From IMG/VR virus record IMGVR_UViG_3300007511_000007, positions 48,372-112,371 of that record: a stretch of 64,000 nt of DNA; one strand, given 5' to 3'. Both the position numbers and the translations under genes were made by a program. Source of the DNA: a virus. Positions within the stretch are counted from its first letter, which is position 1. Every line of letters begins with the position of its first letter. Below, in pieces: positions 1 through 49,259 of the stretch. Below the pieces are notes generated by a model. The model did not search any database. It saw only the letters and a program-made list of their open reading frames with translations, and was not told where the DNA came from.

Positions 1-3000
1 GTTTCTTCTCGGCCTTTTGTTGTTTCTGCTTTTCGGCTACAACCTTTTCGCCCTCTTCAAGAGTAGTGAGGATTATGTCCATCGAATTCTTATCTTCGAG
101 CTTCCCAAGCAATCGCTCTGCCCTGAACTTTGCCTCTTCAAGAGCATCCTTCGCTTTCTCCGCATCCTCAATCGCAAAGGCACTTTCCAGATTACCAAGT
201 GCTTCCTCCAGGGCTGCTTTCTCCTCATCGGGGCCTTCTAATTCCGCAAGCTCCTTCTTTGCCCCGGAGACCCCTGCCTCTTCCTCTTTGGGTTCCTTCT
301 CGCTTTCACCCTGCTCATCGGCTTCATCACTTTTGTACTTCGCCTGTTCTTCAGGGCTGAGGCTGTTCCAGCCCACCTGTGTAACTTCACCGCCTTCGGT
401 TTGGTGATCAAACTTCTTGCCCACAGCCCATTCAGGAGTATCCCCGGCCATCATCAAATGCCAGAATGCCACTCTCCCCGGAGAGGGGATGTCCTCGGAA
501 ATGAGCCAACGAGATGCAATCCTCTTGTAGTTCAAGGACATGTCTTTGTCGTCACCACGATCTCCGTGGTCAACATCGGGATCATCCTCGGGTTTGACCT
601 GCTCCCGGCGAAGATCATTGCGAGGCGGCTTCTTCTTTGGTTCTGGCCGCACCAAACGTTCCGCTTCTTCGTCTTCCTTTTCCCCATGGTCTTTGGTGGC
701 TTGCTTGAACTTTTCCTCACACGACCCGCACACAGCGGGCATCTCAAGGACTTCTGCGTGTTCATGTACTCTTTGTGGACAACGGCATTGGTTTTTGTTT
801 CCGCAGATCGGGCACGTCAAACGCCAATGCTCAGGCTGCAGGATCTGCATAATCTGAGCTACAGTCTCCCCTCTCCGAACATGCAGGTCATACAAACGGT
901 CGCCCGAAGCACTCCGATAGAGCTTCAGTTTTGCTTCATAAAGGGCTGACTGGCGCACCCCTTGATCACAATCTTCCAGATAGCCTGCCGCAATCAACTC
1001 ATCCACAGCATCGTCATCCACCTGGTGACCCCGAAGAAAGTACCCTTTTGGAGTCTTCAGAATAGGCTGCTGGTGAATGTCCATGTCCTGCATAATGGCC
1101 TGTTCATATCCGGTTAGGCTGGATTGCAGTCCCAGATCTCCCCGGAGCACCCACTCATCCCCATCACCTTCTGGGCCATCGGTAGCATTGTTGATGTTGA
1201 TGATGGCAACCTTCTTTCCTTTCTGCACCGACCCGTCATGGACATAAGAATCTTCCAGCCCCGGCACCAGATAGTCGGAACGCAAGATCGAAGTTGTGTG
1301 CCCAACGATGTCTGCCACTTCCTCAAGGGCTTTCTTGAACTCTTCCTTGAGGATCTTGTCTTTTTCTTTCCTCGCATGGGGGAGGGCCGGGCCTTTCTTA
1401 CGAACTTTTCCCAGAGCCTTTCGCATCTCACGGTTAGCGTGGAAGCCTCGCATATCCTTGGCAGTGATCTCGTAAGGTTTGAGATACTCATTGATATCAG
1501 ATGCGCTCACGTCGGGGAGGACTTCTTCGTCATCTCCCTTCCCTTTGGCCGCTGCTTTCAAGGCAGAAATCAACTTTGAGTCCGTAACTTCCTTGGTGTG
1601 TTTGACCCCAGACTTGCCAGTATACTTCAGGACCGCCTTCCCTTCTTTAAAGGATATATGGCTGGCTTTCCATCCCGTAACCCCGTAGTGGCCTTTGTCT
1701 GCGGAGTCCTCATTCCCGACTCGCTCATAAGTCTCGTTGATGAGAGCAACCGCCATCGCAGTTTGTTTCTTCTTGTCGTCCTTGGCGTTGAGATCCTTCT
1801 CTACTTGCTTACGGAGCTTGGGGTATTCCTTCTCAAGCTGTTCGAGCTTCTTAGCCTTCTCCCGGTGCCGATGCTGAACTTGCCCATCTGTGTATTCATA
1901 GACGACCTGCTCATCGCCATCCTTGTTCTTGATCTTTTTCTTGTCTTTGTACTTGGCCGCAACCCGGATCGCCTGTGCTACCATTCTACCGGCTTCTTTG
2001 CTGATCCCCTCCCAGTAAGGGTCGACGGAATAATCAGAGGGCAGTTCACCCTCCTCCTTGAGCTTCTCGACTCCTCTCTCAACATAGATGTCTTGATAGT
2101 CCCGGTCATTTCGGATCACCCAAGTACAGAACTTCCACAAAGCGTCCAACTCTTCTCGTCTCGGGGGGCGAGCAATTTCAGGATGAGCCAAATAATGCTC
2201 AACGATGTCGTGAAGGGCTGGTTCAAGAATATCCGCTGGGCCGTCCCCGATCACATAACCTGCTTGATTACCTGGGTCCATCTGCAAAGTCTCAGGATGA
2301 ATTGCCCAATACCCGGCTTGCTTCGAGAAACGAATTGCTACCCTCTTCGAACTCCCCTCAACGCCCCGACGGGCCAGTTGGAAACGCTTCCCCAACTCCG
2401 GGTAGAAACTAAAAACTTCCTGCGGTACTTCTTTGCCCCCCATCAGAGCCTTTGCGATTTCCCTCTTGTGCCTTGACCGATAAAACGCCAAATCCATCTC
2501 TCGTTTAGCGTCAAGTTCCTTCTTTTCCTTGCGGTACCCCACTTCTTCAGCAAACTGTTTTTCTAGCCTCTGACGCATAAAGACCTTTTTTGCCAATCCC
2601 TTGAGAACCCCTTTCTCTCTCCTTGTTCGGTTCGGGGTCGCAAACAAAGTGCCCCCGAGAAACGTAGCGAACTCTGCCTCCGTCGCCATTTCTCTAGGGT
2701 TAATGCCCTGTTCTCTCACCCATGCATCAAAAGGCAGATCCGGGCGTCTGATCTCTCGGAGCAGTCCTGAGTCACGGATGAACTCAGGTAAGGACATCTG
2801 CCAAAACTCCTTTCGAGATGCCCCTACCCTTTTCTCCAAATGCTCGTGCATTTCAGCATTGTTACTCCCCCACCCATGCGCGAGGGGATTTGCTGGAGTC
2901 AATGAGATCTTCTCCAGCTTCGGAAGTCCCCACACCTCGATGTCCTCCACATCCCACGCCCCTGTGGGCAGCTTCCCCTTGAATTCGCTATCAACGCCCT

Positions 3001-5152
3001 CCAGATAGCCCAACGTCGTATGCGGGCGATAAATGTGCGGTGAGACATCTACAAGGTCAAAGCCTGCCTCCTGGTACGCCTCAGCAAGCCTCCAGCGTAA
3101 TTCGGAGATAGGTCTCTCAAACCGAATGTTCATATGCGGGATCGCCAAGTCTTTCTCAGCATTACGGAAATAATCGACCTGATGGAACTCGGCTTTGGTC
3201 GTCGGCGTACCCAACCCACCAGGGATGATGGTTTCGGCAATATCGAGGAATTCCTGTTCTCGCCCTTTCACATCCCCGACAATCAAGAAGGTGATATGCT
3301 CCGGGGAATCATCATTGGCCAGTTCAGGAAACTGCTTCCCGAGTTTTTCGGGAACTCGGATGAAGAATCCTGCCGATGTGGAATCCCCCGTGACGCTGCC
3401 GTCCCCACCGGCAGTCTTACGGCTTTTCTCTTCCCAATACTCTGGGGGGTTGGACCATTCGTTCGACTCTCCCAGCAATTGCTTTGCTCTCTGAGAGTAC
3501 CACCACAAAGTGGAGCTTGCAGAATCAATGAACTCTTCCACTGCTTTGGGCTTCGGTCCCGGTGGCTCATCTTTCAAACTGTATGGGACTCCAATATCAA
3601 ACCCACTGTTTTTGACCCCAATCCACGCACGCCTCAGTTCCTCCTTCTGCTCCTCAGGAAGTGCCATGACTTGCTGCATGGTCACATTGTAATGCTCACA
3701 AATGAGATCAACCCACGGATTTAGCTTTCTATCGGTGATATTTTTGATGCTCCGAAGGAGGTGGTCAACTTCCACGCCATCTATAGGTCGGCCTAATGCG
3801 TCCCGGTACTCCATGTCGATTCTGTCAATGAAGTCCCCGGCCATATCCAAGGGGCCATCCCCAGTCCAATGCCCCGCATCGGGAACCTCTGGAATTTTCT
3901 CTGGATTCAACTCCCACCATGAGGCAGTTTTCAGGAACCGGGTTGCTACCTTTTGAGCAGGCCCCCTACGCTTCGTGATTTCGTCCATGACCGCATCCGT
4001 TAGATCGGGTTTCTTTGCCAACTCGGGCTTCTCCAGCATCAACTCTCGGGCAATCTGGAATGGAATCTGTCGTTCCGGGCCTTCCAAATTATGAATCTCA
4101 AACACTAGCCGTTGATCCACAAGAGGGCGTTGCAGGAGCTTAAGGAAGTTGTCCGCTTCCTTCGGCTTCATGCCCAGAGTGATCTTACGCAACGTTTCTT
4201 GCTGCTCAGGGGACAAGAATGAGATTGGAGACCGAACCTGAATCCCCAATCCCGCAAGATCCAACAAGAGTCCGACCCCCTTATCATTCAGGTGTCCGGA
4301 AAGGTAGCTGGCAAACGCGTTGTTCTCCCGCACCATCTCAGCGATGACTTTGAGAAGCCCCAACTTCTGCATGAGCTTCAGAGAGTCTCGGGCGTTCTTT
4401 TCCCTGATAACATTCTCCACCATGAGCTTGCCGATTGCTTCCCAAGGAGCTTTCTTCATCTTGGGGGCATTGCGTTTGATAGCGGCAGCAATCTGGGGTG
4501 GAATCGTGAAACCGTACTTAGCAACAAACTTCACGGCACGCAATAAGCGAGTTGGATCATCAGAGAACGTTTTGTCTGGATCAGACGGGCAACGGAGTTC
4601 TCCTTTCTGAAGATCACGTAAGCCACATCCCGTGATATCCACGATCTCAGCTTTATCCGGCCCCTTAGCGATCTCAGCCAATTCCCACATCAAGGTATTG
4701 AGCGTAAATTCCCGCCTCAACACATCTTCTTTAATTGTCGCAGGTTCAACCGTATGGGGTTTGTACCCTTTCCCGCCCTGGCCTCCATATGACTCTTTTC
4801 GGGCATTGGCAATCTCAAGTACCTCACCCTTCATGTCATGGCCGTCCAGATCCCAATGATCCTTCACAGTAACGATAGCAACCCCGTAGTTGTTCGTGAC
4901 CACACTGGTTCTGACAGGGATCGCTTTGACCAACTGGTTCGCAAACCATGCGGAGTCTCTGCCCTTCAACGCAATTGTATCAATTACAACATCCACATCC
5001 TTGATTGGAGCTTTGAGGAGATGATTTCGAACAGCCCCACCCACGATGTAAATGTGTTTGTCTGCCCGAGATTTCTTTGCGACTGAGGCCAGAAACTTGG
5101 CGAGGATTATTGCTCGCTTGTTTCTTCCTCGAATAGCTGTTTTTGAAACCAC
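1..5152 (-). CDS. Giant multi-domain protein: CCA-adding-type nucleotidyltransferase, 2H phosphoesterase and topoisomerase IB (3' end outside window)
   Basis: It starts at a GTG at 5152, after an in-frame TGA and with gaggtga just upstream, and is still open at the left edge, giving at least 1717 residues. Domains seen in order: a class II CCA-adding/poly(A) polymerase head at about 30-330 (IVGGAVRNHLL, catalytic DVD with D52 and D54, LRREFTLNTL, DDPTRLLRAVKF); a 2H phosphoesterase at about 580-760 with two HxT motifs (H619, H711); a type IB DNA topoisomerase at about 1065-1305 that keeps the family's five catalytic residues (R1144 in ERVGN, K1180 in GKSG, R1235, H1285, Y1294); a CPIC...CRC...CGSC zinc-ribbon-like cluster near 1447-1480; and an acidic, coiled tail. 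VAxRFL-like peptides lie near 401, 936 and 1544, between modules. It follows the portal gene, where internal head proteins are often encoded, so delivery with the DNA is plausible but inferred. Confidence 0.9.
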   Translation of the reverse strand, partial: MVSKTAIRGRNKRAIILAKFLASVAKKSRADKHIYIVGGAVRNHLLKAPIKDVDVVIDTIALKGRDSAWFANQLVKAIPVRTSVVTNNYGVAIVTVKDHWDLDGHDMKGEVLEIANARKESYGGQGGKGYKPHTVEPATIKEDVLRREFTLNTLMWELAEIAKGPDKAEIVDITGCGLRDLQKGELRCPSDPDKTFSDDPTRLLRAVKFVAKYGFTIPPQIAAAIKRNAPKMKKAPWEAIGKLMVENVIREKNARDSLKLMQKLGLLKVIAEMVRENNAFASYLSGHLNDKGVGLLLDLAGLGIQVRSPISFLSPEQQETLRKITLGMKPKEADNFLKLLQRPLVDQRLVFEIHNLEGPERQIPFQIARELMLEKPELAKKPDLTDAVMDEITKRRGPAQKVATRFLKTASWWELNPEKIPEVPDAGHWTGDGPLDMAGDFIDRIDMEYRDALGRPIDGVEVDHLLRSIKNITDRKLNPWVDLICEHYNVTMQQVMALPEEQKEELRRAWIGVKNSGFDIGVPYSLKDEPPGPKPKAVEEFIDSASSTLWWYSQRAKQLLGESNEWSNPPEYWEEKSRKTAGGDGSVTGDSTSAGFFIRVPEKLGKQFPELANDDSPEHITFLIVGDVKGREQEFLDIAETIIPGGLGTPTTKAEFHQVDYFRNAEKDLAIPHMNIRFERPISELRWRLAEAYQEAGFDLVDVSPHIYRPHTTLGYLEGVDSEFKGKLPTGAWDVEDIEVWGLPKLEKISLTPANPLAHGWGSNNAEMHEHLEKRVGASRKEFWQMSLPEFIRDSGLLREIRRPDLPFDAWVREQGINPREMATEAEFATFLGGTLFATPNRTRREKGVLKGLAKKVFMRQRLEKQFAEEVGYRKEKKELDAKREMDLAFYRSRHKREIAKALMGGKEVPQEVFSFYPELGKRFQLARRGVEGSSKRVAIRFSKQAGYWAIHPETLQMDPGNQAGYVIGDGPADILEPALHDIVEHYLAHPEIARPPRREELDALWKFCTWVIRNDRDYQDIYVERGVEKLKEEGELPSDYSVDPYWEGISKEAGRMVAQAIRVAAKYKDKKKIKNKDGDEQVVYEYTDGQVQHRHREKAKKLEQLEKEYPKLRKQVEKDLNAKDDKKKQTAMAVALINETYERVGNEDSADKGHYGVTGWKASHISFKEGKAVLKYTGKSGVKHTKEVTDSKLISALKAAAKGKGDDEEVLPDVSASDINEYLKPYEITAKDMRGFHANREMRKALGKVRKKGPALPHARKEKDKILKEEFKKALEEVADIVGHTTSILRSDYLVPGLEDSYVHDGSVQKGKKVAIININNATDGPEGDGDEWVLRGDLGLQSSLTGYEQAIMQDMDIHQQPILKTPKGYFLRGHQVDDDAVDELIAAGYLEDCDQGVRQSALYEAKLKLYRSASGDRLYDLHVRRGETVAQIMQILQPEHWRLTCPICGNKNQCRCPQRVHEHAEVLEMPAVCGSCEEKFKQATKDHGEKEDEEAERLVRPEPKKKPPRNDLRREQVKPEDDPDVDHGDRGDDKDMSLNYKRIASRWLISEDIPSPGRVAFWHLMMAGDTPEWAVGKKFDHQTEGGEVTQVGWNSLSPEEQAKYKSDEADEQGESEKEPKEEEAGVSGAKKELAELEGPDEEKAALEEALGNLESAFAIEDAEKAKDALEEAKFRAERLLGKLEDKNSMDIILTTLEEGEKVVAEKQKQQKAEKK

Positions 5153-5198: not shown

Positions 5199-8100
5199 CT
5201 AGAAGCGACCGCCATCATCCTTCGGCGGCTCATACTCCAAACCCAATTTCTCAGCGATCTGCTTCACAATTTCCGTACCTTCCACAAGTTTCGCAGCAAC
5301 ATCGTTGTAGACGCCCCGCACCATCTCATTGAAGGTAGGATCGTTTACTGTCCACAGATCCCGCTCCACCTTCTCACGGGTTCTTTCAGGATCAATGTTC
5401 AGAAGCTCAAGAATAATCTCGATGTCCAGCGACCCTTTCTGGTACAGGTTGAAGAGATGGTCGAACGTGTCGGAGTTGTCCCTCAAAGCCAACCGGGTAA
5501 AGGACACAGAGGGGTAGATGACATTCTCGTCATCATACTCATCAGCCTCAATGAACCCCATACGGCGGCACATTGGTTTGAAAAGTTGCTCCTCAATGAA
5601 GTCTTGAAGGATCTCACGCAAGAGCATGTATCTGGTATTGATGACCTCAAGATTGATCCGGTCTCCCGAATAGCTGGATTCTCCTGAAAGAAGACTTTCT
5701 GTGACACCCAGACCCGAATACATCTGGCGATCTGTGCGGTCATAAAGGTTCGACCAATCCGGAACTCGTGTGTCAGACCCCATCTCCTCCCAATTAACCT
5801 GGAAGTTGGTGACGATTGAGAAATCGGGGTCTGCCAGAGCCATATCAACCTGATCCCGCAATTCCTCGATATCGTCCACATCCATACCCTCGGCCCAGAC
5901 AATTCTGATGGGAGTCATGTGACGAGAAGCTATCGACGTTTCCGCCTGCCTAATCTTGTCTCGAAAAACGAGTATTCTCATGCAGTTGTGTACCAAAACC
6001 TCATGTGTTACTAGAGATTCGTCGTCTTCTACATCGAAGGAATAAACGATGCCTTTGTAATGCACTGCCTGTGTTTCCTTGATTTTTCTCAACAGCTTCT
6101 TTGATCCGGACCAACCAGTGTCTTTGCCCGCCCGATTCACTGCGGAGAGCTTACCCTCCCCTTTCACTGTCTGCTCGGCCCACTTCTTGACATCCTCGGT
6201 GGAGCAACAAGAGAGACCCCAAAAGTCTTTCTTTCCGTATTGGTATGTCTTCTCTTGCCACCCGGCTGCTGTTTTCCACTTCCGGGACCAATTACGTGCT
6301 TGCCGACTCCTTTTTTTAATCTGTGTTTTGATCCCAACACGATTACAAAGAAGATGGATCTGATGAATCAACAAGCGGTTATCGAGTTGGATTTCAATTT
6401 GCGCTGCGTTCTCATCCCAATGCAACCAACCATCTGTATCCAGCAATCCCTTAAGGAATGCTAAGATCCGTTCCTCGCCCAAATTGAAGACCCATTCAGG
6501 GACACTTTTACCCGAAGCCCCATGTCCAAACTCTTCCATGAACCATCGGGCCAAAAGCATATCTCCGATTCTGATTTGTGTGGCCTCCAGGTCCGCTTCA
6601 CCCACCCCAAACAAGTTCCCTCTGTCCAAGCCCCCGAATTGACTTAAGACGCCTTCAACTTTTTGTTTGAGTTTCTCATCTCGTTCACCCTTCCCAAAAG
6701 TCCATGCCAGACTATGCGTGTTGAGTAGAGAATCTTTTTGTGTCCAGACACAACCATCCCCCAACCAGGTTCCAACCAGATACATAAAGTCATCTGATAT
6801 AGAGATCTTGGAAACAGGGGAACTCAAACTTTTCGTGACGACTGCTCCTGGGACACGGATTTCTTTTGCTATTGGATGCCAAAGAGTTCCGTTTCCCTTT
6901 CCTCGGCCTTTGAACACCTTTTCGGTCTGCAGGCCAATTTGATTCCGCAGCCGTGAGACACAGGCACGGAGACCTGCATAGGTATGTCCAGTGATCCCCC
7001 TAATGGCTTCATAAGAAGCCTCAGTCGGTTCTTCTAATCCCTTGAGCCAATTGATCAGACGGGTAGACTTCTTGACGGCTTCTATCCGCCCTGCGTCATC
7101 CTGCTCATATTCAAAAGAAACAACAAGCTCTCCCGCTCCTGATGTGTCTGCCTCTATAGCAGTGATTTTCCGCTCCCGTCTCTCAAACCCTTTCTGGTTC
7201 TCCCTGAAGCGTCTATCAACTTCAAGTTCTTTTCCCCGCCACCAGTCGGCCAAATCAATCTCAGTAATCGGATTGGACTCAGGAACCACTTGCGCTTCTT
7301 TAACCAAATCGCCTTCTTTGAACTCTTGTGCTTCAATCCACTCTTCTGTCTCATCTTCGTTGACCCGCAGGATGCGGTGATCGGAAGTTACTGCCAAAGG
7401 CCGTTCAATACCCGCCACAGAAAGAATAGTTATTTCCTCATCTACGGGGCGAGAGCCTTTCTGAGCTTTACGGAATCTACCTTTGTGGGTCAACAGAGAA
7501 TCCACTTCAACGTCCACGTCTTCTACAGGAATTTGCTGAATGATACCGTTTCGTTTGACTGTGACCAGAGTGCCGGGTAGTAAGCAACGTTCCAGTAAGG
7601 AAGAACCCCGTGGCTCATATTGGGACTTCTTTCTGCACATGTAGTAGACAAAACTACCCGCGTCCGGATCTGTGTTCAAAGGAATGTTTCGTCCTTGAAG
7701 AATTGCAGACGTGACATCCCCCGGCATCGAATTTACAACCCGAATTGCGTCTCTGTCTCCCATATTGGCTTTCTGGATCACGTCCTTGGTCTTCGAGTCG
7801 GCTACCAACTCAATGATCTTCTCGTCCGTGAACGGGAATGCCTCCATATGAATCTGCTCAGGGGGTAGCACTCTGAGCGCAGTCCATCCTTTGTAGTTCT
7901 TCTTGAGCCACCCAACCGCCCGTGCATTGGCGTCTTCACGCAATTGCCATCGTTCAATTGCTTTGCCGTCTGGGGTCAGTTCCCGAATCGCCTCTTCACG
8001 AATCTCTTTCGGCATCTCCGGATTATTGTCCTCACAGAAAATGAAAACTTCGCCCAGCAAATGGTAGTCGTGGACAATCTCAATCAGACGATGGAGAATC

Positions 8101-8498
8101 TCATTTTTCTTGCACCACCGCTCACAAAATTCGAGGGCTTTCTCCGCAAGCGTCCGGTTCTTGGCCTTGGGCATCCCCAAACGAAGTTTGGAGAGAGGCA
8201 GTTCCGTGTGGAGGTCAATCGCCTGCCCGACAAAACAATCAGTTTTGTACCAGAACCGGTAATAGTTCCGTTGCTCGTCAATGCTCTGTGGAAGTTCAAG
8301 GAAGTCCGTGGATAACTCAGGAGAATAAAAGTTCCCCCCGGAACCCCCAACGGTACCACCTACCGTTGGGTAAGCCACCTTTGAGCGCATCGCAGAAGAC
8401 ATGATCTTGCGGGGTTTCCCCGTGGACACTTTGGGTCTCGGGGGGATCTTCTTTACCTCTACGGCAGTGTCATTCTGTGCCCGTTCTTCTTTGGTCAT
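5199..8498 (-). CDS. Portal protein interrupted by a LAGLIDADG intein
   Basis: The 1099-residue precursor splits into exteins of 304 and 261 residues around a 534-residue intein, giving a 565-residue portal, a normal size for this family. The portal forms the dodecameric ring at the head vertex through which DNA enters and leaves. Extein features include the N-terminal FWYKTDCFVGQAIDLHTELP region and the C-terminal stretch YSGLGVTESLLSGESSYSGD followed by EVINTRYMLL, both portal-like. The gene lies 7 bases after a small gene that follows the terminase, the expected order. The intein begins at Cys305 and ends VHN before Cys839. The portal assignment rests on size, context and general sequence style rather than a single diagnostic motif. 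Confidence 0.88.
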   Translation of the reverse strand: MTKEERAQNDTAVEVKKIPPRPKVSTGKPRKIMSSAMRSKVAYPTVGGTVGGSGGNFYSPELSTDFLELPQSIDEQRNYYRFWYKTDCFVGQAIDLHTELPLSKLRLGMPKAKNRTLAEKALEFCERWCKKNEILHRLIEIVHDYHLLGEVFIFCEDNNPEMPKEIREEAIRELTPDGKAIERWQLREDANARAVGWLKKNYKGWTALRVLPPEQIHMEAFPFTDEKIIELVADSKTKDVIQKANMGDRDAIRVVNSMPGDVTSAILQGRNIPLNTDPDAGSFVYYMCRKKSQYEPRGSSLLERCLLPGTLVTVKRNGIIQQIPVEDVDVEVDSLLTHKGRFRKAQKGSRPVDEEITILSVAGIERPLAVTSDHRILRVNEDETEEWIEAQEFKEGDLVKEAQVVPESNPITEIDLADWWRGKELEVDRRFRENQKGFERRERKITAIEADTSGAGELVVSFEYEQDDAGRIEAVKKSTRLINWLKGLEEPTEASYEAIRGITGHTYAGLRACVSRLRNQIGLQTEKVFKGRGKGNGTLWHPIAKEIRVPGAVVTKSLSSPVSKISISDDFMYLVGTWLGDGCVWTQKDSLLNTHSLAWTFGKGERDEKLKQKVEGVLSQFGGLDRGNLFGVGEADLEATQIRIGDMLLARWFMEEFGHGASGKSVPEWVFNLGEERILAFLKGLLDTDGWLHWDENAAQIEIQLDNRLLIHQIHLLCNRVGIKTQIKKRSRQARNWSRKWKTAAGWQEKTYQYGKKDFWGLSCCSTEDVKKWAEQTVKGEGKLSAVNRAGKDTGWSGSKKLLRKIKETQAVHYKGIVYSFDVEDDESLVTHEVLVHNCMRILVFRDKIRQAETSIASRHMTPIRIVWAEGMDVDDIEELRDQVDMALADPDFSIVTNFQVNWEEMGSDTRVPDWSNLYDRTDRQMYSGLGVTESLLSGESSYSGDRINLEVINTRYMLLREILQDFIEEQLFKPMCRRMGFIEADEYDDENVIYPSVSFTRLALRDNSDTFDHLFNLYQKGSLDIEIILELLNIDPERTREKVERDLWTVNDPTFNEMVRGVYNDVAAKLVEGTEIVKQIAEKLGLEYEPPKDDGGRF
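5985..7586 (-). mobile_element. Intein with LAGLIDADG homing endonuclease inside the portal gene
   Basis: The intein is 534 residues, precursor residues 305-838. Splicing blocks are visible: the first residue is Cys in CLLPGTLVTV, block B has AVTSDHRIL (TxxH), the C-terminal block is VYSFDVEDDESLVTHE, and it ends VHN followed by Cys as the first C-extein residue. Two LAGLIDADG-type motifs are present, LVGTWLGDG and FLKGLLDTDGW, both with the acidic residue. All features needed for splicing and for endonuclease activity appear intact. Confidence 0.93.
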
Positions 8499-8802: not shown

Positions 8803-9047
8803 GTCACATCCTTCTTCGACACTATACCTGTGGAGATCGCCGCCTTCACAGTCTTCCGCAAAAGAGACATCTCATCCGTAGATCCCAGAAAGAGTTTCTC
8901 CCACGATCCCCCGGCTTTTTGGAACACTTCAGAGATCTTGTTGTATTCCTCAGCCTTGTCCAGAAATTTGCCGGGACTCACATCCAACAGCCGGGCGATC
9001 ATTCGATGATCAGCACGGGTTGGTTTTATCGCCGTGAGCGTGACCAT
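8799..9047 (-). CDS. Small hypothetical protein after the terminase
   Basis: The protein has 82 residues. I chose the ATG at 9047 because a ggaggggg ribosome-binding site lies just before it; an upstream GTG at 9059 would add four residues. The start lies inside the 3' end of the terminase gene, in another frame. Residues are mostly helical (MIARLLDVSPGKFLDKAEEY). It has no recognised domain and is probably a small accessory of packaging or portal assembly, by position only. Confidence 0.7.
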   Translation of the reverse strand: MVTLTAIKPTRADHRMIARLLDVSPGKFLDKAEEYNKISEVFQKAGGSWEKLFLGSTDEMSLLRKTVKAAISTGIVSKKDVT

Positions 9048-10903
9048 GCCCCCCTCCACGCTGATCTAGCCCTTTGAACGTCTACTCTTCGAGAATCATG
9101 GCTCCCGGTACGATGCAGCCGTTTGAAGTTCGAGCTTCTTGTGCCTGCTCGACGAGCCATTCCCTGTCCCTTTCCGGTACCTTTGGACATGTACTTGGGT
9201 TGGGTGATTCTCTGTGTAGCCAACCAGATCATCCTCACCAGAGCGTCTGAACGGTCGTCGTGTTTCCCTTCAATGTTCGGAGCCTGAACCTTGGTGATGT
9301 GTTTGGAAACCCGTTCTTCCTGCAACTCTAACAACTCGGTGACATACCCACAGTGCGTTTCGCCATCGGCAATAGGCCAATCGTAGAGGACAACTCTACG
9401 ATCCCACATCATGTCTTTGAAGGTCTTGAAGATTTCTGAGTTGATAATTGGCGTCAGTTGTTTGGTCTTCATCCCTTTGACACCACGTTTCATCAACGCC
9501 TGCTCAAAGGGGATTCCGGCCCACTGGTCAAACAATCCCTCTGCAACATAGAAGCGGGACGCATGTGCTTTGACCCAATCCGCAACCTCATCGAACTCCA
9601 GGCGATCCTGTTGAGCGTATTTGCCTTCCCCGGCTTTGATCTGATCCACAAGGTCAACCACCACAACCGGCCCCATCTCGGGGTCTTGCTCGATATGCCC
9701 AATTGCGATTGCTGAACCGTCTCCTTTCAACCCAACGTCAATCCCCACGAAATGAGGTACCTTGGTGGGGCCTGATGTCTGGGGTCTGCGATCAGGGTCG
9801 ATACATGCGATCAAGTCCCGCTCGTCCTCGATCCAACCCTTGGTTCGGTCGGTAAACTCGGCTCCGTATTCGGTGAAGAACTCGGTGGGGTCTTTGAGAT
9901 ACTGCTTCATGTACTCAGCTTTGGGAACCGTGGGGTTAATTTCCCAAGTTGGTGCCTGAATACACAGCATGTCTTCCGCTACCTCACCACCCCGCATCGC
10001 CATCTGGAACTGCTTGTAGAACAACCCCTGCCGCCCCATTGGGGATGAAATCAGGATCATGCGAGCTTCAACGTTCCCAATGGGGACTCTGGGATCGTCA
10101 GGGTCTTTAGGGGAGAACGCTGACAGAGAAGGCTTGATAGCTCCATAGACGGCATCCGCACTGGACTGCCCCGATTCTACAAAGTGGGCAACCTCATCCA
10201 AGATGACAACCAGGTTACCTGCACCTCGAAGCCCCTTGGCAACACAAGACTTGAACGTCACATTGATACTGGCCTTGGCCGCAGGGTCTTCGCTGTATCT
10301 CCCAAACCGATTAATGTCCTTTGGGGTCTGGAACTTCGCATAGGACATTGTGTTGTTGGCCGTGAACGTTTTGAAGAAACCACATTGACGGAAGTGGTTC
10401 GACACCCCCTGATAGAGCAACCCCGCCTGATCCTTGTCCGTCGCTACAGACGTGATTTGGATCATATCCGAACCCGGGAGTCCGTAATATGCCTGCGGGT
10501 CTCCCTTGCTCAAGAGCTTGTACGTTTCGTAGGCTGCAATACAGGCAGAAATCAGAGTCTTCCCTGACCGTCTTCCCAATGACAAAACCATTTCCCGACG
10601 TTCATCCCCGGCGACTACTTGCCGGATATTACATCGGCCTTCATCATACATGTGACGAAGGTAAGCTGCCTCCGTCATCATCTCGATATCTTCCAGCCTC
10701 CAATCGTCGGGGACCGGGACTATCTTCTCTTTCGTGTCGAGAGGCACCCCATAGTGAGCCTTCAGAATGACTCTTTGAGCGGGGAACAACTTGAAATTCA
10801 GCCCCCACCCGGATTCAATGAAAGTGATAATGTCGACAATCTTTCGCCCTTGATCAGGGTTAATCCCACCACCAGCATGTTTGACCAGGTCACCAAGACT
10901 CAT
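9026..10903 (-). CDS. terL: Terminase large subunit (DNA packaging ATPase and nuclease)
   Basis: This 625-residue motor protein pumps DNA into the head and cuts concatemers. The ATPase domain has Walker A GRRSGKT (about 110-116) and Walker B VVILDEVAHF (DE near 236-237). The RNase-H-like nuclease has acidic motifs FVGIDVGLKGDG near residue 405 and KHDDRSDAL near the C-terminus. I chose the ATG at 10903 because it overlaps the upstream stop by four bases (ATGA) and gives a family-typical N-terminus; an in-frame start 18 codons earlier is unlikely. The last 50 residues are unusually Arg-rich and overlap the next gene. Confidence 0.96.
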   Translation of the reverse strand: MSLGDLVKHAGGGINPDQGRKIVDIITFIESGWGLNFKLFPAQRVILKAHYGVPLDTKEKIVPVPDDWRLEDIEMMTEAAYLRHMYDEGRCNIRQVVAGDERREMVLSLGRRSGKTLISACIAAYETYKLLSKGDPQAYYGLPGSDMIQITSVATDKDQAGLLYQGVSNHFRQCGFFKTFTANNTMSYAKFQTPKDINRFGRYSEDPAAKASINVTFKSCVAKGLRGAGNLVVILDEVAHFVESGQSSADAVYGAIKPSLSAFSPKDPDDPRVPIGNVEARMILISSPMGRQGLFYKQFQMAMRGGEVAEDMLCIQAPTWEINPTVPKAEYMKQYLKDPTEFFTEYGAEFTDRTKGWIEDERDLIACIDPDRRPQTSGPTKVPHFVGIDVGLKGDGSAIAIGHIEQDPEMGPVVVVDLVDQIKAGEGKYAQQDRLEFDEVADWVKAHASRFYVAEGLFDQWAGIPFEQALMKRGVKGMKTKQLTPIINSEIFKTFKDMMWDRRVVLYDWPIADGETHCGYVTELLELQEERVSKHITKVQAPNIEGKHDDRSDALVRMIWLATQRITQPKYMSKGTGKGQGMARRAGTRSSNFKRLHRTGSHDSRRVDVQRARSAWRGAWSRSRR

Positions 10904-11598
10904 GAGGGTACCCCCCGGATGGTATTCTTGATTTTGTTCTTGGCCTCTTGTTCCCAATGGGCATCCATCTTCTTGGAGAGGTTATCGAACACAAGATCAA
11001 CCATCTCCGAAGGCAATCCGGATTCTCGCATAGCGTATTGGAACGTCTGCATGATATGGGAAAAGAGTGTCTTGAAAGCGGGGCTGTCGAACTCCAGGGT
11101 TGACGAATCGATCTCTTTCTTCTTCTTGAGCCACGTTTCCCCAATCGTGCGCAGAGCTTTCAGCCGACGGCTAGAAAACCCCGAAGTGCTGTCCCCCTCT
11201 CTTTCGGCCACACTCTTGTCATAGTCCAGGGACGCCGCCTCCTTAGCCATCTCCTTGAGGATGTGGTCAAGAATGTCGGTCGAGTCAGGATTCTTCCCCA
11301 TGGCTGTTACGATTGGATCATTCACGACGACGGATTCTCGTTGTCGCACCCATTCTGCCACTTCCGGATTTTTGGGGTCGGGCAAAGACACTTTCGGTTT
11401 ACCGACACCCCCCTTACGGCCGGGGAGATTCTTCATCACGATGGGTTCACCGGATTTCTTGGTCACTATCGTATCGGTTGTCTTTACCTCATCTCGATTC
11501 CGCCACCGAAGATTGCCGTCTTTATCCGTTACTTTTACTCGGAGAGCGTCCTTGGGGAGTTTGGCCGCAATCGCTTTCGCGTTTTGTTTACCCGACAT
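10900..11598 (-). CDS. Hypothetical protein, candidate small terminase subunit
   Basis: This 232-residue protein starts after gaggttatt and overlaps the terminase large subunit start by four bases. The N-terminal third is basic and probably extended (KQNAKAIAAKLPKDALRVKV, GRKGGVGKPKVSLPD); the C-terminal half is helical and charged. Position and coupling to terL make a DNA-recognising small terminase the best guess, but I see no clear helix-turn-helix, so the function is inference only. A packaging or scaffold accessory is equally possible. Confidence 0.8.
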   Translation of the reverse strand: MSGKQNAKAIAAKLPKDALRVKVTDKDGNLRWRNRDEVKTTDTIVTKKSGEPIVMKNLPGRKGGVGKPKVSLPDPKNPEVAEWVRQRESVVVNDPIVTAMGKNPDSTDILDHILKEMAKEAASLDYDKSVAEREGDSTSGFSSRRLKALRTIGETWLKKKKEIDSSTLEFDSPAFKTLFSHIMQTFQYAMRESGLPSEMVDLVFDNLSKKMDAHWEQEAKNKIKNTIRGVPS

Positions 11599-13136: not shown

Positions 13137-15595
13137 ATCTCGAAGCCCCCACCAAAGAAGATGTCCCCGATGTCTCCGAAGTCAGGATCATCACTCAATT
13201 TGATATTATCCGTAGCAGAACCGAGATCGAACTCAGCGGGGTCATGTGCTGGGGCGAAAAGGCTCGCCGTCATCTCAGCATCACCTGCTCCTGCGGCTTT
13301 GATGTTGGCCTGTTTCACTTTCTCGATTGCCGCCCCGTCCCCGCTCTCTGCTGCTATCAATGTCTTGTTGTACTTCTGACAAACTTGGGCTTCAATGGGC
13401 TGGTCGTCTGCCCCGGTGATCAATTTGGCATTGGCGAACTTGCAGGCATGGCAACGCTCCATCTCCAGAAGCATCGGGATACCATTGACCCGATGTTTTG
13501 ACGCCCCTTTGTCACAACCCTTGGTGCCTGTCTTGCTCGCATACACATGCGGGTCAACATAAAGGAATCCAGCAGCCCCCTCATGCGCCTTCCGCAGGGT
13601 GCTGATGGCCTCTTGTGCGGCCAAACGGACATCGCTGGTAAGGCGCATCTTGATGAGGTCATCCAGATCCTTCCCAGCGGAACCCTCATTCATAGCTTTG
13701 GCTACCCACAGCAATGACGCTCGCAATTTCTTCGGCTGTGCGTTGATCCATTCCGACACTTCCTGTACGGAAGCGGTTTTCTTGGCAGCTACTTGCTTGC
13801 GCTGAGGCACTGCAGCCTCAAACCTGTGTCCTTTGTAGTCTTCTGTCTGAGCCGCATTTTTCAGACTGGCCACTACCTGCCGCCCCAGCTTGAGTGCTTC
13901 ATCCACTACCGCTGCGGGGGAACGTCCCCCTTCTTTGTACAGTTGTTTCCGCAATTCAGGGGTGATCATCACACCATTGGATTCAATGGACTCTGTGAGA
14001 AGGCGTTTTACAGCTTGAGATTGTTTGTGGTACCAGTCGAGAAACTCAGAGTTCTGCTTGATTGCAGCCCCCTTGGGACTCCGATAGGCATTCGCCTTGT
14101 AATTGCCCCCGACATATTCCTTCGTCTCCGTAGCCTGAACCCCTTTCTTCCTTACCGCCGTCAAAGCCAGCACCATCGCTTCCCGAGGGGACTTACCCAA
14201 GGAAAAGATGCGATTGACTTCAGTGGCCGAAAGCACCCCGGCTGAGACATATTTCTTTTCGAGGTATTCACGAGCTTGTTTGTTCTGTGCCGCCCACATC
14301 TCCTGAGTCTCCATTGCGGTCTTGGACTCAGCCCGGGACAAGAGTTCCCATGCATTGCGGGTTTCCCGTTCGTCCGGGGCAGCAGCAATAAACGAGACCC
14401 CGATTCCATCATACTCTTTGCTGGGTGCCGTCGCCGCAACAAGTTTGGTCGCCGCTTTGAGGACATCAGCAGGGGGAGCCGTGGATTGGAACAGACGTTT
14501 GGCGGCTTCCTGGCTCAAAAGCCCGGCCCGCATCTTCTGTGCAATCCAGCCATGCGCTTTCTTACGCTGACCTTTGATGACCCTTTGCCCGACACTCACT
14601 TGCTGGCGAGGCTCGGGAGTTGCCGCTGCGAATTGCTTCTGAGCTTCCTCAGAAGTCACGGTATCAACAGCCTTCACCTCAACCGGCTTGAAACTGTCCT
14701 TTGCTGCCGACTCACCCGGGCCAGCGAGAAATGCTTTTTTCAAAATCTCAGGCGGGGCCAGATCCCCGTCTTCGGTGAGCACATAACCCAAAGACTGGAG
14801 CTTGGGGCCGTAGTGGGCCATCGCTTCGTCCCACGGCATCACTACCACAGCTTCCTTGCCCACGACCCCCCCGACGGGGCTTCCTTCTTCCGCAATGATG
14901 TACTTGGCACTCCCGCACTTCTTACGGATTATTTCCTTCCATTTCCCATTCTTCAGCCCGGGAAAAGCTGCTGCTCGAATGAAGACCTTACCTGCCAGCC
15001 CGTGCTCATTCACGAGCCTCCTCATTGTTTGGGCGATCCTGGGGAAGTCGGGGCCAAGTTCCTCGCGGGCTTCTTTGATGATCTCCGCAATCGGGTACCC
15101 ATAAGCTGATTTCCGCATCGCCCGCTGGACGACTCGAAGCAGATCTTCCGTACTAGCCTTCTTCGCCGTGGGTGTCGAGGCGTGGCTTTCCTTGTAGGGC
15201 AAACGTTGGTTGACCCCATCTGTTCTATGCTCAACGCCCCATGCTTGCTCCAACTCTTCAATCCCTTTGTCCACGGGGTTTACCGGAAGTCGATCTGGAT
15301 CTTGCTCACCATGCAACCAGCCCAGCCCGGCAAGGCTGCCCTCTTTCATCAGTTGATCCAAATCCCCGATCTGATGGCTCGCAGACTGACTGTCTACATC
15401 CCCTTCGGGAACGGCATCTACAACCAGACCGTCAGGAAGATCTGCCAACCCGTGTACTTCAGGCAGTCTCGCATTGTCCAGGACGCCGCTTCCATACTCC
15501 GTGTCGAATTGAAATCCGTCCAGACCGTAATTGTACCCATCGGTCATGGTGAAATCATCAGACGGCATGTTGGATTTCGATTTCTTATCAGTCAT
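13133..15595 (-). CDS. Large repeat-containing virion-block protein
   Basis: The protein has 820 residues and no recognised enzyme domain. The N-terminus is acidic and low in complexity. A compact-looking region at about 150-290 contains KVFIRAAAFPG and VVVMPWDEAMAHYGPKLQSL. The middle has several loose helical repeats of the type xxaGxLsxxExxRLF...SPxxavxxA. A cysteine cluster (KGCDKGA, RCHACKFAN, QVCQKY) sits near residue 690-740 and may bind zinc. The C-terminus is acidic and ends in GGGF. A KKTAS peptide precedes one helical repeat. It overlaps its neighbours by 4 and 8 bases. The late block and size suggest a structural or ejected protein; the function is unknown. Confidence 0.82.
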   Translation of the reverse strand: MTDKKSKSNMPSDDFTMTDGYNYGLDGFQFDTEYGSGVLDNARLPEVHGLADLPDGLVVDAVPEGDVDSQSASHQIGDLDQLMKEGSLAGLGWLHGEQDPDRLPVNPVDKGIEELEQAWGVEHRTDGVNQRLPYKESHASTPTAKKASTEDLLRVVQRAMRKSAYGYPIAEIIKEAREELGPDFPRIAQTMRRLVNEHGLAGKVFIRAAAFPGLKNGKWKEIIRKKCGSAKYIIAEEGSPVGGVVGKEAVVVMPWDEAMAHYGPKLQSLGYVLTEDGDLAPPEILKKAFLAGPGESAAKDSFKPVEVKAVDTVTSEEAQKQFAAATPEPRQQVSVGQRVIKGQRKKAHGWIAQKMRAGLLSQEAAKRLFQSTAPPADVLKAATKLVAATAPSKEYDGIGVSFIAAAPDERETRNAWELLSRAESKTAMETQEMWAAQNKQAREYLEKKYVSAGVLSATEVNRIFSLGKSPREAMVLALTAVRKKGVQATETKEYVGGNYKANAYRSPKGAAIKQNSEFLDWYHKQSQAVKRLLTESIESNGVMITPELRKQLYKEGGRSPAAVVDEALKLGRQVVASLKNAAQTEDYKGHRFEAAVPQRKQVAAKKTASVQEVSEWINAQPKKLRASLLWVAKAMNEGSAGKDLDDLIKMRLTSDVRLAAQEAISTLRKAHEGAAGFLYVDPHVYASKTGTKGCDKGASKHRVNGIPMLLEMERCHACKFANAKLITGADDQPIEAQVCQKYNKTLIAAESGDGAAIEKVKQANIKAAGAGDAEMTASLFAPAHDPAEFDLGSATDNIKLSDDPDFGDIGDIFFGGGFEI

Positions 15596-16409
15596 GGATT
15601 TCTCCTAATGCTCGCCGTGCAGCAACCCTACGGGCAAGGTGTCTCTCTTTTTCCCGCAGCTTATCCAACCCTGTCTTCCCGAGAAGCTCACCTACGATCT
15701 TTTTATGAAGCAGAACCTGTCTCTTGTCCCCGATCAGGATAGTCCCCCTGCCAGTCTGGAACCCTAAGATGTTCCAGTACGATTCTAGTTCCTTCTTGTT
15801 CATCCGGGACAATTGTTTCCTAACGGACTTCTCATCCAAAGAATTGCTGGCTGTCTTCTTGGTGCCGTGTTCTTCGTCCATCTCCTCTTCTTCTTCCTCA
15901 GCCCAACCCTCAGGATCAGAACGGATATCCTCAGCGTCCTCAACGATATCCTTGACTTCCTGTTTCTCCTCGGGGGTTTCCTGACGGGAGATCGCAGCCC
16001 AGTGGGGAGCTTGCACTTCATCGTAAAGGGTGTCCGAGATTGCAGACAACGCCTCTATAACATTCATGAACTGGCGACGCATGTGCGTGATCTTCATCAC
16101 ATAACCCTTGCCGCCTAAGGAACCGTCGGGAGAGATTTTGGCCGATTTGAGTTTAGCAAAAGTGCTGTAAGCTGACATCGCATGTCCCAAAGCAGCAGAG
16201 CCTGAGCGTAAAACCTGAGCCACGGGTTTCATGTGCTTGGGGTTGAAGGCGTACTCAGGAGTAATCTGTCGTTCTGTCGCCCCGGTGTCCCCAAATGCCC
16301 ATTCGTTGCCGTCGTCACTCTTATCTTTGATGAACCGGACTTCACCTGCGGTTTTGAGATTTTTCCCCTTCAAGAACCGCTCTGAAACCCGTTTTTTGAG
16401 ATCGCTCAT
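15588..16409 (-). CDS. Tagged hypothetical protein of the virion block
   Basis: I chose the ATG at 16409 (273 residues) because it places the peptide LKKRVSERFLKGKNLKTAG at the N-terminus, as in other tagged proteins of this phage; an in-frame ATG 11 codons upstream lacks a ribosome-binding site. The body is helical, with an acidic run EEEEEMDEEHGTKKTAS near residue 165, then a basic C-terminal part ending ERHLARRVAARRALGEIHD. No domain was recognised. It may be an internal virion protein; that is inference from the tag and location. Confidence 0.78.
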   Translation of the reverse strand: MSDLKKRVSERFLKGKNLKTAGEVRFIKDKSDDGNEWAFGDTGATERQITPEYAFNPKHMKPVAQVLRSGSAALGHAMSAYSTFAKLKSAKISPDGSLGGKGYVMKITHMRRQFMNVIEALSAISDTLYDEVQAPHWAAISRQETPEEKQEVKDIVEDAEDIRSDPEGWAEEEEEEMDEEHGTKKTASNSLDEKSVRKQLSRMNKKELESYWNILGFQTGRGTILIGDKRQVLLHKKIVGELLGKTGLDKLREKERHLARRVAARRALGEIHD

Positions 16410-16468
16410 ATTGACACACCGCCCATAGTCAATCCTATTCATTCCATACTATAGAGGGATTAACCGCC

Positions 16469-46998: not shown

Positions 46999-47229
46999 TT
47001 AATCGGCCCAACGAAAAGGAAACAGCTTGATGGTTTTCCCCTTGGCTTTGGGTTTGTCAGGGGTGGTCACGAAGATAGTAGGCATACGATGTTCGTCGTA
47101 ACCCATACCAGAAATAATCCCCTTTTTGTTGCGATATTTGCCATACAAGATGCGATCTCCCTTTTTGGGTATTCTCAAACCCCCTGTGAGGAATCGAGAA
47201 GCTACTCTTTTGGCTGAAGGTTTTCTCAC
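46999..47229 (-). CDS. Small tagged SH3-like protein
   Basis: The protein has 76 residues, taking the GTG at 47229 whose GTGA overlaps the upstream stop. The N-terminus, KPSAKRVASRFLTGG, is one of the clearest VASRFL tags. The rest is a small basic beta-rich domain (IPKKGDRILYGKYRNKKGII and MPTIFVTTPDKPKAKGK), SH3/KOW-like, possibly binding nucleic acid. It is translationally coupled to the tandem-repeat regulator candidate. The promoter for the replication leader lies just beyond its stop. Confidence 0.78.
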   Translation of the reverse strand: MRKPSAKRVASRFLTGGLRIPKKGDRILYGKYRNKKGIISGMGYDEHRMPTIFVTTPDKPKAKGKTIKLFPFRWAD

Positions 47230-49169
47230 CGTAACCACTTGTCCAGGAGTGGGGACGCTACTTTGTAGCCAGAATGTCCTTTGGAGAGTTCATGCTGGGT
47301 CAAAAGGGACTGCATGGTATTTTGGATGTCCTTGGATTTGAGGACTGCTTTACGGATTGCCTCAGCTACTTTAGCGATTGCCCTCCCAACGGCCATTTCA
47401 TCTTTGGATGTGACCTCCCGACCCATGGAGTACAGGATCTCACGTTTCTTCGGAGCTTTGCCGTTACGGGCAATCAAAGTCATCCATTGAACTCCGTACT
47501 CCGCGACGGCTGGTTTCATTTGATGGATGACCCGCAAACAGAAGCCACGGAGCTTTTTCCCAAGTTGATCTCTTCCGGTCAGAGCTTCTGCAATGAGGTC
47601 GTACTGGTTTTTCTCATTCAACTCGGTGTAAAGGAGAGTCGGAACATTCTGTTGGGGTTTTTGCCCTTCCATTTCCGGGTACATCTTTTTCTTCTGTCGT
47701 TTCAGAGTCTTCATGTAGGTCATAGCCCGGAAATGGGCATAAGTAACTACAGTCGGCAAAATCTTTTCAGGAGTCTCCTTCCCATTCAGAATTCGTTTGC
47801 CTCTTTTTTTGCCCACATCCCAGAAGAGGGGGAGGATCTTTTTTCCGGTCATCCCAATTCCGGCCATCGAGTTTTGAAGCAAATCCTCAGGAGGTTGTGT
47901 CATCCCCGACTTGTTGTACATGGTTTGCATTGTGCCGAGAGCCGTTTTGTAGAGATCAGTTGGCTGGAACCATTCCGGGTCTACCTCATGCTCAGACAAG
48001 AATTGTTGCGCCTTCACCAACCCTTGTCTCGGACGATTGCTCCACGTACCCGGAGTCAATCCAGCAGCCCCTTCCAATACCTGTGCCCGCGCCACCATCT
48101 CCAAAGCCTTACTCAGAGCCGCCTGGAGGTGCCTTTGGGCGAGTTTCTGTACCAAGGACGTGTCAGATGCCACCCGGCCCCTATAGGACTGTAGAACGGC
48201 TGTCAGGAGCCTTGCGAGTCGTACTCCATACTCCTTGGCCAATTCAAACCAGTATTCTTCGATGAGCTTGGTGATTTTGGGGGAGTTCTTGATAGCTCTG
48301 GGTAAAGTGCGGTGGAGCTTGGTCTTCACCCGAGAGAACATCTGTTCGACGCCTTTGTCTCCGGGTTCCCACTCGTAGCCCAATGCTTTCAAGAGAGCGG
48401 TTTGCTTCTTCGGAGCTTGAGGATTCTTTTCCACGTAATCGAACCATCGGATCGCCATCTCGGTTTCGGCACTGGAACGGAAGGTCTTGTCAATCACTTT
48501 GAGAATGAAGCTTCTGAACTCAAGACCGGCCTTGGAATTCGAGGCCATGAGTTCGCCCATGACGCGGAATGGATCAAGGTCTACCTTCTTGTAAATGTAG
48601 TCCTTCACCTTATCGACTTGTTCCTCTACGGAGATTCCCACGTCATGCTCGCCCATGGGATCGTACTCAGGACTTTGTCGTTTCTGCTGTCTGCGATATC
48701 CCTTCAGATCTCGTATTGCCCGATTCCTCGAATACTGGACAGCCACAGCCGCAGCTTTGGCAACAGTCTCCTTACCGTTCAGGATGCCCTTAGACTTGTG
48801 TGTTCCCACCGACCAGAAGATGGCACTCGTATCGGTTTGTGTCTTGCCGTCTCCCCAAAGCCCCATCATCCCATCGTTCATAATGCCGCTGGGGTCCAAC
48901 GCAGTCGCATTTCCGATAACCTTGTTGACCATACTCAAACAGTCCGAGTACATGCGGGAAGGCTGGAACCAGCTTTCATCCACCTGAGGCAATTCTTCTC
49001 GGGCTTTTTTCAAACCTCGCCGGGGATTCCGGGACCAAACTCCCATTTTGACCCCCGCAGCCCCTTCCAAAGCCTGACAGCGAGCAAGCTCGTCCAACTG
49101 CTTGGCAAAATTCCCTTGCAGGTATCTCGAAGCGACCTTGAGTATCAGCGTATGGAAAAAATCGTTCAT
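47226..49169 (-). CDS. Tandemly duplicated tagged protein, possibly sigma-like
   Basis: This 647-residue protein is built from two related halves. Each starts with a tag-like peptide (LKVASRYLQGN near residue 10; QKLAQRHLQAA near 350), then QALEGAAG or QVLEGAAG, a Trp/Asn/Arg-rich segment (GVWSRNPRRGLKKA; GTWSNRPRQGLVKA), WFQP, a region with GKETVAKAAAVAVQYSRNRA or GKETPEKILPTVVTYAHFRA followed by basic residues, and a C-terminal helical HTH-like part with APKKQTALLKALG or APKKREILYSMG. The layout (region-2-like basic helix, then region-4-like HTH) suggests a sigma-type factor, but similarity is weak. Starts at ATG 49169 with aaggag upstream. It is divergent from the plus-strand regulator. 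Confidence 0.8.
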   Translation of the reverse strand: MNDFFHTLILKVASRYLQGNFAKQLDELARCQALEGAAGVKMGVWSRNPRRGLKKAREELPQVDESWFQPSRMYSDCLSMVNKVIGNATALDPSGIMNDGMMGLWGDGKTQTDTSAIFWSVGTHKSKGILNGKETVAKAAAVAVQYSRNRAIRDLKGYRRQQKRQSPEYDPMGEHDVGISVEEQVDKVKDYIYKKVDLDPFRVMGELMASNSKAGLEFRSFILKVIDKTFRSSAETEMAIRWFDYVEKNPQAPKKQTALLKALGYEWEPGDKGVEQMFSRVKTKLHRTLPRAIKNSPKITKLIEEYWFELAKEYGVRLARLLTAVLQSYRGRVASDTSLVQKLAQRHLQAALSKALEMVARAQVLEGAAGLTPGTWSNRPRQGLVKAQQFLSEHEVDPEWFQPTDLYKTALGTMQTMYNKSGMTQPPEDLLQNSMAGIGMTGKKILPLFWDVGKKRGKRILNGKETPEKILPTVVTYAHFRAMTYMKTLKRQKKKMYPEMEGQKPQQNVPTLLYTELNEKNQYDLIAEALTGRDQLGKKLRGFCLRVIHQMKPAVAEYGVQWMTLIARNGKAPKKREILYSMGREVTSKDEMAVGRAIAKVAEAIRKAVLKSKDIQNTMQSLLTQHELSKGHSGYKVASPLLDKWLR

Positions 49170-49259
49170 TGAAGTCTCCTTACAGACCAACTCAAAAAGG
49201 CACATCGCATAAGGAAAATAACGAGTTTCCGTCGAGGCGATTTTTTTGCGCGTTTTTTC

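Follow-up and report, generated by a model that had tools for sequence, protein, structure and literature searches.

Why a bacteriophage should join enzymes of RNA ends and of DNA strand passage in a single polypeptide, encoded beside the genes that build its head, is the question raised by this locus. The window, which is the whole stretch of 64,000 nucleotides analysed, covers positions 48372-112371 of a 112,371-base virus record. A sequence-only reading had described a frame running open from position 5152 to the left edge, directly after the portal gene, and encoding three enzyme modules. Placement and content were borne out by the reading frame, Pfam and structure prediction. The extent needed revision: the frame is indeed open, but the protein is 330 amino acids longer than had been seen, the gene spanning 2047 codons (genome 47380-53523; L004:11380-17523) with no internal stop. 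Translation starts at a GTG preceded by a ribosome-binding-like GAGGTGA, and the modules follow in the order nucleotidyltransferase, 2H phosphoesterase, topoisomerase IB core and helical tail (Table 1). The catalytic residues named earlier (R1144, K1180, R1235, H1285, Y1294, H619 and H711) all stand where they had been placed; of the transferase blocks, DVD occupies residues 52-54 and RREFT begins at 146. AlphaFold2 followed by Foldseek recovered the expected folds of both the 2H and the topoisomerase modules. Inteins occur in both the portal gene and the head-maturation protease gene (L004:6678-9362).

Table 1. Features of the polyvalent locus, in window coordinates; residue numbers refer to the 2047-residue protein.
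Feature	Position	Strand	Evidence	Remark
Polyvalent protein gene, first 1717 codons	1..5152	-		Rest runs past the window edge to genome 47380
Class II CCA-adding/poly(A)-type nucleotidyltransferase module (predicted), residues 8-400	3953..5131	-	Pfam, PDB profile, conservation	
Inter-module tag 1, KVATRFL, residues 401-407	3932..3952	-		
Linker with 'W.LNPE...GDGPxD' repeat unit 1, residues 411-575	3428..3922	-		No Pfam family
2H phosphoesterase module, residues 586-762	2867..3397	-	Pfam PF13563, AlphaFold2, Foldseek	H619xT621 and H711xT713
Inter-module tag 2, KRVAIRFS, residues 936-943	2324..2347	-		
'YWAIHPE...GDGPAD' repeat unit 2, residues 946-1045	2018..2317	-	Sequence	No Pfam family
Topoisomerase IB catalytic domain (predicted), residues 1055-1320	1193..1990	-	Pfam, AlphaFold2, Foldseek	R1144, K1180, R1235, H1285, Y1294
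Inter-module tag 3, RVAAKY, residues 1063-1068	1949..1966	-		Immediately before the topoisomerase core
Cysteine-rich zinc-ribbon-like stretch, residues 1444-1480	713..823	-	Sequence; weak Pfam matches	
Conserved 'KPPRxDLR ... DxSxNYKRVAxRW' segment with tag 4	503..625	-	Alignment of nine relatives	
Inter-module tag 4, KRIASRWL, residues 1543-1550	inside 503..625	-		
Long helical charged C-terminal tail, residues 1551-2047 (start)	1..502	-		Remainder beyond the window
Portal protein gene	5199..8498	-		Split by an intein with LAGLIDADG endonuclease
Terminase large subunit gene	9026..10957	-		

The first module is predicted to be a class II nucleotidyltransferase of the CCA-adding/poly(A) type, a class in which sequence alone does not tell CCA from A addition. 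All class II motifs (GG..R, DxD, RR(D/E) and (E/D)DxxR) are present as GGAVR, DVD, RREFT (146-150) and DDPTR (198-202), and the two aspartates are kept in 49/49 non-redundant copies. The Pfam family PolyA_pol matches with E=1.5e-15, and a three-sequence profile of the module matches CCA-adding enzymes of the PDB with E-values to 4e-21. Head-domain motifs and a length of about 390 amino acids, over the whole of which the module is conserved, are common to it and to class II CCA-adding enzymes and bacterial poly(A) polymerases. It departs from class II CCA-adding enzymes past residue 277 or so, where its sequence is conserved yet finds no match in solved enzymes; PolyA_pol_RNAbd, the tRNA-binding neck/body/tail region, matches slightly under the cut-off (E=1.7e-4). 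Inteins lie inside the nucleotidyltransferase of three relatives (L011, L029 and L139), in L011 exactly at the RREFTFN motif.

The second module belongs to the 2H phosphoesterases. As a single sequence, the isolated region matches 2_5_RNA_ligase2 (PF13563) with E=3.4e-4, the copies of relatives match the same family with E down to 2.9e-12, and both HxT motifs are kept in 34/34 non-redundant copies. The AlphaFold2 model (pLDDT 91.5) has 47 PDB matches at E<=0.001 in Foldseek, with drCPDase and LigT at the top and, at lower ranks, rotavirus and coronavirus 2'-5' phosphodiesterases and a poxvirus cGAMP phosphodiesterase. Sequence comparison likewise places LigT/RNA 2',3'-cyclic phosphodiesterases closest among solved structures, whereas Acb1 reaches an E of only 0.85, and a profile built from relatives reaches RNA 2',3'-cyclic phosphodiesterase relatives with E=1e-4. 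The two HxT motifs and the predicted fold are common to the module and to these LigT-like enzymes of the 2H superfamily, but identity is about 15%. Either 2',3'-cyclic ends of RNA or oligonucleotide signals could serve as its substrate. Gp102 of Mycobacterium phage Dandelion (L149:3299-3850), annotated as 'RNA ligase', also resembles a 2H phosphoesterase, with a Pfam match slightly short of the cut-off (1.2e-5), and is encoded between the portal and capsid genes; this cultured phage may show the same principle.

The third module is a predicted topoisomerase IB catalytic domain that lacks a cap. Topoisom_I matches with E=1.4e-27, a profile from relatives matches topoisomerases IB with E=2e-15, and the catalytic pentad is invariant among non-redundant relatives (the first R in 64/64; K, R, H and Y in 65/65). 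The AlphaFold2 model (pLDDT 80.8) finds variola topoisomerase as its best Foldseek match (6.5e-12), and ranks 1-22 are all topoisomerases IB of variola, Deinococcus, archaeal or human origin; a tyrosine recombinase was rejected on this ranking, XerH reaching merely 2.9e-3. Pentad and fold are common to the module and to the enzymes of poxviruses, Deinococcus and eukaryotes. The active-site histidine is that of the pox and eukaryotic enzymes, whereas D. radiodurans has an asparagine at the aligned position. To call the enzyme complete, as the sequence-only reading did, is nonetheless too strong, since alignment to the variola and D. radiodurans enzymes found no counterpart of the cap domain that known IB enzymes have at their N terminus. 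The cap is considered absent because the alignments start at residues 68 (variola enzyme) and 70 (D. radiodurans enzyme) and because the sequence upstream of the core varies among relatives. The module further differs from these topoisomerases in being embedded in a multi-enzyme chain. Topoisomerases I with a tyrosine-recombinase fold, likewise of the IB type, are described in the jumbo phages Motura, RSL1, Lu11 and PaBG (PMC7824862). They are distant at best, because a tblastn search with the topoisomerase module matched no cultured phage, and a head-locus fusion of them was not found in the portions of that paper covered here.

Relatives of the locus were found through module profile queries of viral contigs, which gave 128 hits, some on the same contigs; searches of viral contigs with the whole protein and with the 2H module alone returned none. 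Among named records, the 485-kb metagenomic huge phage LR745208.1 comes closest, with 51% identity in the topoisomerase and 87% in the capsid protein. The topoisomerase lies between the portal and the head-maturation protease in 33 of the 38 non-redundant contigs showing both genes, a count that measures linkage and not abundance, as contigs were gathered via topoisomerase or transferase hits. The gene order is terminase, portal, the 2H/transferase/topoisomerase set, a helical protein, an SH3-like protein, the protease, in some cases a scaffold, and the major capsid protein. All three modules are present in 13 of the 33 locus contigs, 2H and topoisomerase in nine, transferase and topoisomerase in six, and topoisomerase alone in five. 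Single-chain fusions occur in the order transferase-2H-topoisomerase (the studied phage, L029 and L086) and in the order 2H-transferase-topoisomerase (L009, L049, L052, L053 and L085). L011 and L016 have a 2H-transferase chain beside a separate topoisomerase gene, the chain is fused to the next head-locus protein in L033, L051, L058 and L080, and further arrangements exist. Three enzyme modules with intact active-site residues make up a set that many large phages have conserved in the interval from portal to head protease.

No cultured phage carrying the topoisomerase came up among the relatives. Bacillus phage G and Tunturi_5 have distant portal and capsid proteins in common with these phages, and their post-portal gene has no Pfam match to the modules. 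In phage G this gene (gp15, L147:3810-5186) shows, by eye, a MuF-like Cys/His pattern (CCPVC...HHSFCNY) with no Pfam match. The MuF domain of Mu gpF/SPP1 gp7 has no Pfam match in the protein or its relatives, gene position being all that is in common. An origin in bacterial genomes was considered and set aside: a first contig scan gave no such contig and a second gave two MAG contigs, one of which (L145) is likely phage because the locus recurs there along with a portal gene. Defence-system models gave no match for the studied protein and three matches among relatives. On contig L002 a tRNA-like gene (L002:12007-12080) with a CTA (amber) anticodon has no encoded CCA end, and the portal gene there ends in TAG; it is possibly a suppressor tRNA.

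Between the modules stands a short motif, [RK][VI][AS]xx[WFY], which appears here as KVATRF, RVAIRF, RVAAKY and RIASRW. In 129 ORFs bearing the modules it was counted 171 times against 21 expected from shuffled sequence, an excess that is partly due to shared descent and overstates independent origins. Its density is 1.88 per 1000 residues outside recognised domains and 0.23 inside them, an eightfold difference, and the tag preceding the topoisomerase, like the one following PPRxDLR, occupies homologous places. Other genes of the region likewise have an excess of tags in the 35 residues next to either terminus (27 versus 4). It looks like a linker or an address peptide, as judged from sequence pattern and position. 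Terminal tags occur, for example, in the genes at window 47226-49205, 57381-58946 and 15588-16442, which have no recognised PHROG family. The repeat units at 2018-2317 and 3428-3922 adjoin tags and have the common pattern W..(N/H)PE...GDGPxD; the unit of the linker at residues 411-575 recurs in L016 between 2H and transferase. A KxA[SG] head-protease processing site, spotted by eye at module boundaries, was dropped after 16 were seen and 20 expected across the family. A second recurring terminal motif, LAxxxPELRxxLxPLLR, is found in the same phages (L003:12502-13065, L003:12977-15616, L010:8379-8678 and L013:16631-17035) and is possibly another address tag. In the 735-kb phage LR756501.1, a multi-domain protein (L006:2637-6338) has a deaminase-like domain and a C-terminal CCA-type transferase, its parts being separated by a different repeated motif, DPYGEEDW.

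The chains of relatives carry further cargo. Additional Pfam domains in 20 locus chains include HAD_SAK_1, PAP2, InPase, ART-PolyVal, AIG2/GGACT, acyl-transferase-like and GNAT domains as well as inteins. HAD_SAK_1 ('Swiss Army Knife RNA repair proteins') reaches E=1e-22, and ART-PolyVal (E=1.7e-8) and InPase (E=1.5e-39) are likewise found in relatives and not in the studied protein. Among ten whole phage records of relatives, RtcB occurs in five and ATP-dependent RNA ligases in three; none has more than one CCA/poly(A)-type transferase, and in the eight that have one it is encoded either within the locus or outside it. Neither an RNA ligase nor RtcB was found in the 112-kb record of the studied phage, which is probably incomplete.

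The idea of a polyvalent protein, proposed in the sequence-only reading, gains support from these features: the chain holds at least two unrelated enzyme domains by Pfam, and portal-terminase packaging genes accompany its placement in a virion locus. Polyvalent proteins, predicted to be packaged, also combine several unrelated enzymes per chain in portal-terminase phages, and their 2H, ART-PolyVal, InPase and GNAT modules recur in the studied protein or its relatives (Iyer et al. 2017, PMC5512222). Polyvalent proteins, 2H domains within them, CCA-adding enzymes and jumbo-phage topoisomerase IB are each known singly; that their combination is unusual also holds, as they are not described together in one head-locus protein in the portions of the two sources covered (PMC5512222, PMC7824862). 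Within the same portions of PMC5512222, topoisomerase IB and a CCA/poly(A)-type transferase as recurrent modules, the portal-protease place, the RVAxRW tags and the shared helical tail were not found. A term search of the open-access literature, as far as its texts were covered, did not find the RVAxRW-type tag, the capless topoisomerase or a portal-to-protease locus joining the modules, and the tag is apparently undescribed. The head ejection proteins of phiKZ and SPN3US are also large proteins of giant-phage heads, some cut by the prohead protease within the head (PMC5694885); they differ in enzyme content.

The favoured reading, with a probability of roughly 60%, is that of a polyvalent protein of a large-phage clade which is packaged and injected and unites RNA-end healing with a strand-passing DNA enzyme. 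Its separate enzyme modules would be strung on RVAxRW-type tags and end in the helical tail. The protein would be made late, enter the prohead by means of tail and tags, perhaps with cleavage by the protease, and be injected together with the DNA. In the new host, 2H and nucleotidyltransferase would heal and rebuild RNA 3' ends, chiefly of tRNAs damaged by defence nucleases, and phage-encoded RNA ligases or RtcB from outside the locus would do the joining. The topoisomerase core would nick and rejoin one strand of entering or newly replicating phage DNA. Delivery with the DNA is made more likely by the conservation of the combination between portal and head protease in many phages, and the closest structures, the HAD partners of the RNA-repair type and ligases encoded at other places speak for RNA-end healing. 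Poxvirus particles carry topoisomerase IB together with poly(A) polymerase, an analogous pair; there, however, the two are separate proteins and the host is eukaryotic, and common ancestry is not claimed. A more far-reaching proposal, offered tentatively and with the odds leaning against it, is that the tag may be a modular address loading any enzyme into the capsid, in analogy to encapsulin cargo-loading peptides. The chains would then be cargo racks, with topoisomerase IB and RNA-end healing as standard items that are possibly released by the protease.

Alternatively, the protein may be a kit against host signalling, in which the 2H module, once injected, breaks down alarm molecules (cyclic or 2'-5' oligonucleotides) and the transferase modifies host tRNAs or other RNAs for takeover, with no RNA repair. 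Acb1 and rotavirus VP3 destroy such alarm signals. The lower-ranked Foldseek matches to 2'-5' and cGAMP phosphodiesterases are consistent with this proposal, as is a sub-threshold Acb1 match of a 2H protein encoded in the same gene interval of a mycobacteriophage. It is nevertheless considered unlikely, as RNA 2',3'-cyclic/LigT enzymes hold the top ranks and are nearest by sequence, and the 2H module accompanies a CCA-type transferase and, in relatives, RNA-repair HAD domains. For 2H domains of polyvalent proteins, Iyer et al. preferred a function as RNase or against signalling to one in end healing, since they never saw these domains in company with RNA ligases (PMC5512222).

The main rival to an action of the topoisomerase on entering or replicating DNA is a role in packaging. 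The protein would then act late and not be injected, the topoisomerase relieving torsion or freeing ends as the DNA is packaged, with the RNA modules riding along or acting late in the producing cell. No module is more constant than the topoisomerase, and the other five of the 38 contigs encode it as a stand-alone protein between terminase and portal, which agrees with such a role. The RNA-end enzymes, however, have no obvious packaging job and yet are in the chain or locus in 28 of 33 contigs, and shuffled cargo modules are a hallmark of injected polyvalent proteins (PMC5512222), which leaves a purely late role quite improbable. Lastly, an artefact in which genes were wrongly joined or a stop between them missed, as the separate adjoining genes of some relatives might suggest, has a negligible chance and was rejected, since identical single-chain fusions without stops recur on other metagenome contigs.

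For injected polyvalent proteins of the kind favoured here, the implications concern a clade of large phages, most of them uncultured: a ready kit against RNA damage and an enzyme that passes DNA strands may be stored in their heads. The capless topoisomerase would be an unusual minimal form within a drug-relevant enzyme family, and the tag is a candidate head address peptide of phages. If the reading is true, RNA repair would operate at the very start of infection, before phage gene expression, and these phages are predicted to resist tRNA-cutting defences.
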